Source: a virus
Strand: one strand, 5' to 3'
IMG/VR virus record: IMGVR_UViG_3300028025_000470
Location: 1 to 30,917 of that record
Length of the DNA: 30,917 bases
Below, one piece after another: positions 3,413-7,382 of this stretch. Numbering within the stretch: the stretch's first letter is position 1; each line of letters opens with the position of its first letter. A program made the translations under genes and the position numbers. Under the pieces are notes generated by a model. That model ran no database searches and was not told the DNA's origin. It saw nothing but the letters and a program-made list of their open reading frames with translations.

Positions 3413-3796
3413 ATGACAAAAGAGGAAATAATACAAGAGTTGCAATTTAGGGCGACCCAGAAATATCTAATTTATCTGGCTTTGCAGGAAATTATGCTAG
3501 ACAATTACGAAGACGCAACGTTTTTAAAGGATTACGACCACGACCTAACTGTTAAGCATAAAAACATAATCAACTCCTTAAAACGCAACGCAACTAAGGC
3601 GTTTAGATTTCTGGAAGGCTACGACGAAGGCGAGGCAACAATTAAGCAATTCCACGACTTTGTAAAGCTTTTCGAACGCATACACGAGTCGATTGACTGG
3701 GGAGGTCCAGTATACACCGATTGCCTTACTGCGGTTGAACAAATAATAAATAACTATGCGAAAATTCACGGAAGCGGAAGCGGAGACAATGCTTGA
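3413..3796 (+). CDS. Helical hypothetical protein, 127 aa
   Basis: The product appears almost wholly alpha-helical and acidic, with an EEIIQELQFRATQKYLIYLA N-terminal helix and a C-terminal GSGSGDN tail. No motif is recognised. It begins one base after the previous stop. Its last 41 bases are overlapped in another frame by a small HTH gene. Confidence 0.65.
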   Translation: MTKEEIIQELQFRATQKYLIYLALQEIMLDNYEDATFLKDYDHDLTVKHKNIINSLKRNATKAFRFLEGYDEGEATIKQFHDFVKLFERIHESIDWGGPVYTDCLTAVEQIINNYAKIHGSGSGDNA

Positions 3797-3899
3797 CCTT
3801 TGGCGTGACCGGTTGCCTGTAAAGTCAATCGCGCACGAAATGAAACGCTCATATAATTGCATTTTAATTCAACTAAAAAAGCGTTCACTAATTGGATAA
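3756..3899 (+). CDS. Mini HTH protein, 47 aa
   Basis: ATG at 3756 opens a 47-residue frame overlapping the end of the previous gene. It reads RKFTEAEAETMLDLWRDRLP, then VKSIAHEMKRSYNCILIQLKK: helix, IAxxMxRS turn, recognition helix, as in minimal resolvase- or SANT-type HTH folds. Its stop TAA (3897-3899) lies within the ATTGGATAA motif that forms the -33 side of the next promoter, so gene and promoter are interlocked. A regulator of that promoter is a plausible but unproven role. Confidence 0.6.
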   Translation: MRKFTEAEAETMLDLWRDRLPVKSIAHEMKRSYNCILIQLKKRSLIG

Positions 3900-3919
3900 C
3901 TTTAAAATAGTTATATTTG
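3892..3919 (+). promoter_or_regulatory. Promoter of the structured RNA and replication gene, TTG-17-TATATTTG
   Basis: TTG (3892-3894) and a perfect TATATTTG (3912-3919) are 17 bases apart. The start site predicted about 7 bases downstream falls at or near G3926, the first base of a 12-bp stem. The region shares ATTGGATAA and the 17-base spacing with the promoter at 6827-6854, so the two are probably co-regulated. Confidence 0.72.
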
Positions 3920-3925
3920 AAAAAC

Positions 3926-4010
3926 GAATTATTCTTGAGGTGAGAGGCAAGAATAATTCCATAGGTTCCTAAACCTAACCCCGGCAGTCTCTCACCTGTT
4001 GGGGTTTTTT
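3926..4010 (+). ncRNA. Candidate structured RNA (~85 nt): three hairpins with complementary loops, ending in a terminator
   Basis: The stretch from the predicted start site to the T-tract is almost wholly base-paired. Hairpin 1 is a perfect 12-bp stem, GAATTATTCTTG (3926-3937) with CAAGAATAATTC (3948-3959), and loop AGGTGAGAGG. Hairpin 2 is TAGGTT (3962-3967) with AACCTA (3972-3977). Hairpin 3 is ACCCC (3978-3982) with GGGGT (4001-4005), plus an inner CAG/CTG and loop TCTCTCAC (3988-3995), then TTTTTT. Loop 1 and loop 3 are complementary: 3938-3946 AGGTGAGAG pairs with 3989-3997 CTCTCACCT. This predicts a kissing-loop RNA or an alternative antitermination fold. I know no named family that matches. 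It could be a free ncRNA, an attenuator for the replication gene, or partly a DNA operator. Confidence 0.6.
3978..4010 (+). terminator. Rho-independent terminator five bases before the replication gene
   Basis: The ACCCC/GGGGT stem with an inner CAG/CTG pairing is followed by TTTTTT (4005-4010), then ATTTTATG. It should end most transcripts from the 3912 promoter just before the ATG at 4016, unless antitermination or loop pairing changes the fold. Confidence 0.65.
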
Positions 4011-4015
4011 ATTTT

Positions 4016-4768
4016 ATGAAAAAAGAAGCTTATTACTTTTCACACGATGCCAACGCTAAGGACGACCCTAAGATTTTAAAGCTTAGGATGGAAATGGGTT
4101 GGGAAGGCTACGGACTTTTCTGGGCGTTAATTGAACTGCTAAGAAACGAAAGCGACTTTGTTATGCGAACGCATTGCAAAAGCATTGCCTTCGCATTGCA
4201 AACGCATGAGGACACAATTAAAAAAGTAATTGAGGACTTTGATTTATTTATAATTGAAGACGGTTATTTCTGGAGCGAAAGCCTTTTAAAACGTATGGAA
4301 TTAAAGGAGGAACGCTCAGAAAAGGCTAGAGAATCGGCCAAAAAACGCTGGAATAAGGATATTGATGCGAACGCAATGCGAACGCATAGCGAACGCAATG
4401 CGAATGCAATGCAATTAAAGGAAAGTAAAGTAAAGGAAATTAAAGAAAATGAAATAAAAGAAAGTAAAGTAAATGAGGATTCACACAATGCGATTTTTCG
4501 CGAATTATGGAAAAATAAGATTTGGCTGGAAGGATTAGCAATAAATTGGAAAGCGGATATTAAAGAAGTTCAAGACCATTTAAATACCTTTAGGCAAGAA
4601 TGTATCTTAAAAGGTAAATACAAGGAAAACGAAACTCTCGCTAAAGAGCATTTTTTTAATTGGGTAAAAAGAGGCAACCCAATTCCTAAAAAGGAAAGCG
4701 CCAAAGAAAATGTTTTTAGCCAACTTTACCGGGAGGAACTAGAAAAAGAAAAATTAAACGACCTATGA
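4016..4768 (+). CDS. Replication protein with Lin1244/Lin1753 (DUF4373)-type N-terminal domain
   Basis: Residues 1-115 carry the phage replisome-organiser-type domain: YYFSHDANAKDDPKILKLR (7-25), GWEGYGLFWALIELLR (28-43), a winged-helix region to FWSESLLKRM (85-94), and a basic KARESAKKRWNK end. A Lys/Glu-rich linker (115-155) joins it to a C-terminal helical domain, FRELWKNKIWLEGLAINWKA and onward. Proteins of this type bind a phage origin and recruit the helicase loader. The linker DNA carries iteron-like repeats and a C-free AT-rich tract, the same layout as lambda O, whose origin lies inside its gene. Its stop overlaps the next gene by 4 bases. Expression probably depends on reading through the upstream terminator. 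Confidence 0.82.
   Translation: MKKEAYYFSHDANAKDDPKILKLRMEMGWEGYGLFWALIELLRNESDFVMRTHCKSIAFALQTHEDTIKKVIEDFDLFIIEDGYFWSESLLKRMELKEERSEKARESAKKRWNKDIDANAMRTHSERNANAMQLKESKVKEIKENEIKESKVNEDSHNAIFRELWKNKIWLEGLAINWKADIKEVQDHLNTFRQECILKGKYKENETLAKEHFFNWVKRGNPIPKKESAKENVFSQLYREELEKEKLNDL
4162..4205. repeat. Iteron-like array 1: four 11-bp units around TGC-N4-GCA
   Basis: Four decamers with palindromic ends lie at a strict 11-bp period: TGCGAACGCA (4164), TGCAAAAGCA (4175), TGCCTTCGCA (4186) and TGCAAACGCA (4197), each separated by T. Read on the minus strand the units are GCGTTTGCAAT, GCGAAGGCAAT, GCTTTTGCAAT and GCGTTCGCATA. The period is not a multiple of three, so protein repetition does not explain it. 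Confidence 0.8.
4367..4410. repeat. Iteron-like array 2: four tandem 11-bp units
   Basis: The units are GCGAACGCAAT (4367), GCGAACGCATA (4378), GCGAACGCAAT (4389) and GCGAATGCAAT (4400). The same TGC-N4-GCA core occurs, with one unit beginning AGC, separated mainly by A where array 1 has T. The two arrays therefore look inverted relative to each other. Each is 44 bp and they are 161 bp apart. A C-free AT-rich tract follows directly. Confidence 0.85.
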
Positions 4769-7074: not shown

Positions 7075-7318
7075 AGGGTTGCCGAAAAGCAAAACAGATT
7101 ATTCGCTGGAAATAAGATACCGATTAAGAGACGGCCAGTGGTCTGCTTGGAGTAACAAAGGCAAAGGCACATTTGAAAGCATAGAAATAGTCCAGCGCCA
7201 GATTAGATTACTAGCTTCGTCTTATCAAGGCAGGGAAAAAGAAGTTAAATTTGAGTGGAACGGATGGCTTTGCGACTTTAGCGGACATCCTACCGGGGAA
7301 GTTATTTCATTAAAATAG
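7067..7318 (+). CDS. Hypothetical protein, 83 aa, beside the XRE regulator
   Basis: The start overlaps the XRE gene by 8 bases, so the two form a two-gene unit between a promoter (6827) and a terminator (7347). The protein is basic at the N terminus (MAKGLPKSKTDYS) and beta-rich, with four Trp and a C-terminal WLCDFSGHPTGEV. I do not recognise the fold. The repressor-plus-small-basic-protein layout resembles a toxin-antitoxin pair, but no known toxin motif is visible, so this is speculation. Confidence 0.65.
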   Translation: MAKGLPKSKTDYSLEIRYRLRDGQWSAWSNKGKGTFESIEIVQRQIRLLASSYQGREKEVKFEWNGWLCDFSGHPTGEVISLK

Positions 7319-7346
7319 TTTTATTGGGTTTGTTATTTTGTTAAAG

Positions 7347-7373
7347 CCTTGCTCAATCGGGCAAGGTTTTTTT
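7347..7373 (+). terminator. Rho-independent terminator after the XRE unit
   Basis: CCTTGC (7347-7352), an eight-base loop and GCAAGG (7361-7366) form a stem extended by A-T pairs, followed by seven T. It separates the regulator unit from the late region. Confidence 0.85.
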
Positions 7374-7382
7374 CTACTTTTG
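7349..7382 (+). promoter_or_regulatory. Promoter before the SAM methyltransferase
   Basis: TACTTTTG (7375-7382) fully matches TAnnTTTG and lies only 4 bases before the ATG at 7387, so the transcript would be nearly leaderless or start at the ATG region. The nearest TTG (7349-7351) is 23 bases away, inside the terminator stem, which is at the edge of usual spacing. Confidence 0.4.

Follow-up and report, generated by a model that had tools for sequence, protein, structure and literature searches.

A loop-paired, three-hairpin RNA element upstream of replication genes in uncultivated phages

Positions 3926-4010 of the window, by which we mean the whole 30.9-kb virus record that was analysed, contain three consecutive hairpins, the first and last of which have complementary loops. 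This raises the question of whether the loop contact is real and, if so, what such an RNA would do for a phage. The original prediction, made before relatives were compared, had proposed either a phage noncoding RNA or a cis switch whose termination depends on loop pairing. The window carries tailed-phage head and tail genes, and the element sits between a 47-aa open reading frame and a Lin1244-type gene. The terminase shares 52% identity with that of a Nonlabens phage and the promoter box belongs to the Bacteroidota type, from which we infer that the host is probably a flavobacterium-like bacterium.

The element and the pairing of its two loops

Sequence reading and folding upheld the three hairpins as first described, including the perfect 12-bp stem (Table 1). 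The fold has a calculated energy of -32.8 kcal/mol in RNAfold (z -4.3), and 0 of 200 shuffles folded equally well. The original prediction had counted 9 complementary bases between the loops, 7 of them within both loops; the 7 held, but the remainder includes bases that are paired in the stem of hairpin 3. The contact compatible with both stems therefore consists of 7 Watson-Crick pairs, with one further G-U pair possible. A 7-nt match between the first and last loops was found in 0 of 2342 dinucleotide shuffles that had at least two hairpins. When we scanned the 30.9-kb window with a descriptor written for the purpose (two hairpins, 7-nt loop complementarity, T run), the element was the only site that satisfied it. 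The terminator character of hairpin 3 is inferred by sequence only.

Table 1. Coordinates and basis of the features discussed; positions refer to the window unless a locus is named
Feature	Position	Strand	Description	Basis
47-aa ORF	3756..3899	+	directly 5' of the promoter; 3' end looks alike in many relatives	sequence reading
-7 promoter box	3912..3919	+	TATATTTG; Bacteroidota type TAnnTTTG	sequence reading; conserved in relatives
Hairpin 1 (H1)	3926..3959	+	stem 3926-3937/3948-3959, perfect 12 bp; 10-nt loop	fold
H1 loop	3938-3947		AGGTGAGAGG	
Loop-1 kissing heptamer	3940..3946	+	GTGAGAG (RNA GUGAGAG); complement of 3989-3995	conserved in relatives
Hairpin 2 (H2)	3962..3977	+	stem 3962-3967/3972-3977, 6 bp; variable among relatives	fold
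Hairpin 3 (H3), terminator-like	3978..4005	+	stem 3978-3987/3996-4005, 10 bp	fold, terminator scan
H3 loop	3988-3995		TCTCTCAC	
Loop-3 kissing heptamer	3989..3995	+	CTCTCAC (RNA CUCUCAC); complement of loop 1	compensatory changes
T run of terminator-like site	4005..4010	+		sequence reading, terminator scan
Downstream gene	4016..4768	+	Lin1244_N domain (PF14297); phrog_2562 replication initiation protein	family searches
Two elements in L433	2092-2193 and 6632-6723		differing loop versions	
Two elements in L436 (G038)	789-880 and 7279-7380		differing loop versions	

A protein search of IMG/VR with the downstream gene returned 67 loci. Besides the window, 56 of these loci have the element upstream of the gene, namely those with the 5' flank present and protein identity of at least about 70%; it is missing from the distant relatives L064, L066 and L067. 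Across 32 distinct elements, two-sided changes occur at 13 pairs, where shuffles give 8.3, and covariation scores 0.249 compared to 0.112, with 0 of 500 shuffles doing as well. Such changes affect 5 of the 12 stem pairs of hairpin 1 and 5 of the 10 of hairpin 3, and covariation support for hairpin 2 is weak.

For the loops, elements were gathered via homology of three downstream genes, avoiding selection by loop sequence, and were located with a model of the structure that left out the kissing pairs; the loops were measured afterwards. All 148 homologous elements (80 distinct) have a perfect 7-bp loop-loop match. The loops fall into six versions that always read GU-NNN-AG, with GAG, CGG, AGG, GGU, GGA or CGC in the middle. 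The GU..AG ends never vary, and the three middle pairs occur as 3, 2 and 4 Watson-Crick types in order, without a single mismatch or G-U pair. Between L053 and L621, 4 of 90 aligned positions differ. Two of them precede hairpin 1 at the 5' edge; the only changes inside the RNA are on both sides of kissing pair 5, which goes from U-A to A-U. As a control, the descriptor matched reversed and complemented sequence 21 times, with a GU-NNN-AG loop in 0 of the 20 matches inspected. The pairing of loop 1 with loop 3 is thus backed by sequence conservation, which we regard as the decisive evidence. The earlier claim that a chance match is unlikely held on both the shuffles and this conservation. The compensatory changes that it called for were found, as clean double changes in the kissing pairs and two-sided changes in hairpin 1, and a change in one loop without the other, which would have refuted it, was looked for and not met.

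Two phages carry two elements each, and in both the loops of one element pair poorly with those of the other. The second elements, which were found otherwise than by their own loops, have GGUCGAG/CUCGACC (L433) and GGUCAAG/CUUGACC (G038) and are again compensated. A second model match in L069/L438 is not an element, and model matches on the minus strand proved to be mirror images of the hairpins rather than antisense genes.

The element appears to belong to an undescribed RNA family of about 85 nt that precedes replication genes of many uncultivated phages. The original prediction knew of no named RNA family with this layout, and this held: a covariance-model search of the window against Rfam 15 found 0 families reaching the gathering threshold, and a permissive search gave weak matches only, the best being rli38 with 27 of 49 bits. 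The C4 and isrK models (RF01695, RF01394, RF03163) matched neither the window nor the divergent loci, including the antirepressor locus L438, and the same search did detect isrK and C4 in Gifsy-1. No description of the element was found in the open-access literature searched. Named phages gave no DNA match, and the element is absent from Nonlabens phage P12024L and four other retrieved relatives. An origin in prophages was also considered and rejected. In a sample of one genome per species, 74 pattern matches in 85k genomes included 0 that passed the kissing-hairpin descriptor with these loops, and 15 model matches in 395 Bacteroidota genomes included 0 with a 7-nt kissing pair.

Position relative to promoter and start codon

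The order of promoter box, element and start codon is shown by sequence evidence. In the window the 3' end of the -7 box is 6 nt upstream of hairpin 1, as had been claimed, and the box is conserved among relatives: TAnnTT[TC][GA] occurs upstream of 114 of 114 distinct homologous elements, at a distance of 4-10 nt in 113 of them, against a background of 0.087 per 40 nt. On the other side, the first T run and the start codon that follows it are 0-13 nt apart (median 7; 114 distinct cases), and in L601 and L608 a different open reading frame likewise starts directly after the element. The ATG of the window gene is 5 nt past the T run, leaving no space for a separate promoter. Without promoter space between T run and start codon, transcription has to pass the terminator-like site for the gene to be expressed. 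On sequence evidence only, the locus has what defines an attenuator, a terminator-like hairpin between promoter and gene with no second promoter, and it also has the loop pairing upstream of a replication initiator gene that marks I-complex-type control. On the minus strand, a search for the -7 type only found no box conserved across 115 rows, 45 of which have one somewhere.

The genes behind the element are not always of one kind. Pattern and descriptor scans placed it before a DnaD-like helicase loader and an antirepressor, and also before genes judged from translation alone to encode DUF6291-like, ParB-like, HNH-like and helicase-like proteins. Since the downstream gene differs in this way from the Lin1244-type initiator, the RNA is not tied to one protein. 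The first element of L433, with about 330 nt to the next clear gene, is an exception to the leader arrangement and may also act as a free RNA. Whether the element occurs beyond phages of Bacteroidota is uncertain; the promoters of L069 and L432 look sigma-70-like by eye, and the hosts of both are unsettled. We also observed an element at L438:9409-9498 (minus strand) before an antirepressor gene, with a sigma-70-like promoter, perhaps in a phage of another phylum. The 47-aa open reading frame upstream of the promoter had no match in a family search and could conceivably regulate the promoter.

Some relatives of the DnaD-like gene (L634, L635, L636, L641-L643, L647) have another leader at the same place, about 100 nt upstream. 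Its first part is a 4-bp hairpin with the loop AGGCAG, GUUGCAG or GUGCAG. A terminator-like hairpin follows, with an apical loop complementary to that of the 5' hairpin, and the loop-1 sequence is repeated immediately upstream of the start codon; the three sites covary in three versions. This second architecture points to competition between the 5' hairpin and the ribosome-binding region for the terminator loop, an inference from sequence alone. It also has an AGUA/GAA-like internal loop. A third variant was seen upstream of the matched gene in L639/L640, GGCUGGAC/GUCCAGCC, in which the 5' hairpin matches the terminator loop (GGCTGGAC with GTCCAGCC) and there is apparently no copy at the start codon. 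The window family has no third loop copy overlapping the start codon and none within 400 nt (99 distinct cases).

Turnover and specificity of loop versions

Sequence comparison also shows that loop versions turn over quickly. At least 17 changes of loop version are required on a tree of 47 initiator genes. Clusters of the flanking genes (5-6 classes) change 4-7 times in seven of eight comparisons and 9 times in the other, compared to 10-16 changes for the loop version on the same rows. This flanking-gene control is approximate and its cluster sizes are more uneven; on these figures the loop version turns over about 2-3 times as fast as neighbouring genes. In L036 and L042, for instance, the genes are 97% identical and the elements 71% identical. 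Loops that swap while their flanks stay are the pattern expected, by analogy, of plasmid incompatibility loops, with action in trans being inferred. Fast turnover could also result from recombination without selection.

Calculated pairing energies are -8.9 to -10.7 kcal/mol for matching versions and +0.6 to -5.7 kcal/mol for non-matching ones, with a single wobble-related exception at -8.6. The idea that the loops have a trans target within the phage is unsupported, as copies of the heptamers elsewhere were at no homologous place in nine phage records and at no homologous site in the 400-nt flanks of 99 distinct cases. A bolder reading, which we offer only as a possibility, is that the loops form an RNA self-recognition code in which a leader RNA acts only on leaders of the same version. 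Such a code would control copy number or let co-infecting phages exclude each other, and the fast turnover would be driven by selection for rare versions.

A leader model, its rivals and related systems

In the explanation we favour, the element would serve an early phage replication gene as its 5' leader, transcribed from a start just downstream of the -7 box. Hairpin 1 would form first in the nascent RNA, followed by hairpins 2 and 3, the last ending a few bases before the start codon. Some polymerases would stop at hairpin 3 and release an RNA of ~85 nt, and others would read through to yield the mRNA of the replication gene. Loops 1 and 3 would form the 7-bp kissing contact, and the share of readthrough or translation would depend on whether this contact is kept in cis or replaced by the loops of another RNA copy. 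Since good pairing is confined to identical loop versions, the switch would be specific to its own version, answering to same-version phage genomes and ignoring others as plasmid incompatibility loops do.

We lean modestly towards a leader or attenuator with a functional kiss, and regard version-specific action in trans as an inference that is no more than possible. Transcription, termination, readthrough and its regulation, the direction of the effect and action in trans are all inferred from comparative evidence, without transcript or probing data. The original prediction of a noncoding RNA or cis switch is supported to this extent, with a role for loop pairing in termination still inferred. 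The linker between hairpins 1 and 3 is short, so that kissing in cis needs sharp bends, which counts against the favoured explanation, and a translational variant of it is weakened by the loop copy at the start codon being seen only in the second architecture.

Among the alternatives, a free-standing phage small RNA remains possible. Hairpin 3 would then be an ordinary terminator, the kiss would compact and protect the RNA, and the gene would be expressed by leaky readthrough. The compact fold, conserved promoter-like box and terminator-like site agree with this, as does the stretch without a clear gene behind the first element of L433. Against it, in all 114 distinct cases no more than 13 nt separate the first T run from the next start codon, even with the different open reading frame of L601 and L608, and no conserved target of the loops was seen elsewhere in nine phage records. 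We favour the leader or switch because the element is directly before a replication-initiation gene, a position the original prediction did not mention.

An IncI-type translation switch, in which the loop contact governs ribosome access to the start codon rather than termination, is also conceivable. The target gene is of the same kind, and L634, L635, L636, L641 and L647 repeat loop 1 before the start codon in three covarying versions; however, the window family has no loop copy over the start, and the T run of hairpin 3 is typical of termination. A ligand- or protein-sensing, riboswitch-like leader with the loop contact as mere tertiary architecture is unlikely. Loop-loop contacts are common in riboswitches, and the invariant GU..AG heptamer ends would fit, but there is no conserved unpaired core apart from loops and linkers, and the differing downstream genes reveal no shared metabolite pathway. 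A DNA element (an origin or protein-binding inverted repeats) is suggested by inverted repeats adjoining a replication initiator gene, but is very unlikely given the strand asymmetry (a promoter box before the element and a T run after it), the lack of a conserved mirror arrangement and complementarity located exactly in the hairpin loops of every relative.

The leader favoured here represents a structured RNA family that is apparently undescribed, shows very clean loop-loop covariation and lies at the replication-starting gene of many environmental phages. Its small set of poorly cross-pairing heptamers offers natural kissing-loop pairs ready for RNA engineering. Like the structured RNAs of Bacteroidetes and phages in Rfam (PMC2864571), it is a conserved structured RNA found by comparative genomics, although none of those reaches its gathering score in the window.

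The closest described logic is that of IsrK of Gifsy-1, a short RNA that ends at a terminator preceding a phage gene, where readthrough gives the mRNA; the same paper compares IsrK to the system of P4, where RNA pairing halts transcription ahead of replication genes (PMC4825925). The element would share with IsrK and P4 CI/seqA a short phage RNA, a terminator just before a phage gene and a readthrough mRNA. In contrast, IsrK uses long refolding helices and P4 CI pairs at separate sites, and neither a kiss between loops 1 and 3 nor interchangeable versions are described there for either (PMC4825925). In attenuation of the pT181 type, a terminator upstream of the rep gene is regulated by RNA pairing. 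That system needs a countertranscript, and the element rows have no conserved -7 box for one.

The I-complex plasmids (IncI, IncK and IncB/O) have RNAI, a stem-loop I and a pseudoknot upstream of rep; kissing starts at three top-loop bases, and changing a single base can be enough for plasmids to become compatible (PMC10724649). Their kissing partner is an antisense RNA, whereas the element has both partners in one RNA; its hairpin 3 also looks like a terminator, and no conserved antisense -7 box was seen in 115 rows. Common to both are a leader before a replication initiator gene, loop kissing and a few bases that set specificity. If the loop versions do act in trans, they would do for phages what incompatibility does for plasmids, and RNA recognition between co-infecting phages would be directly testable.
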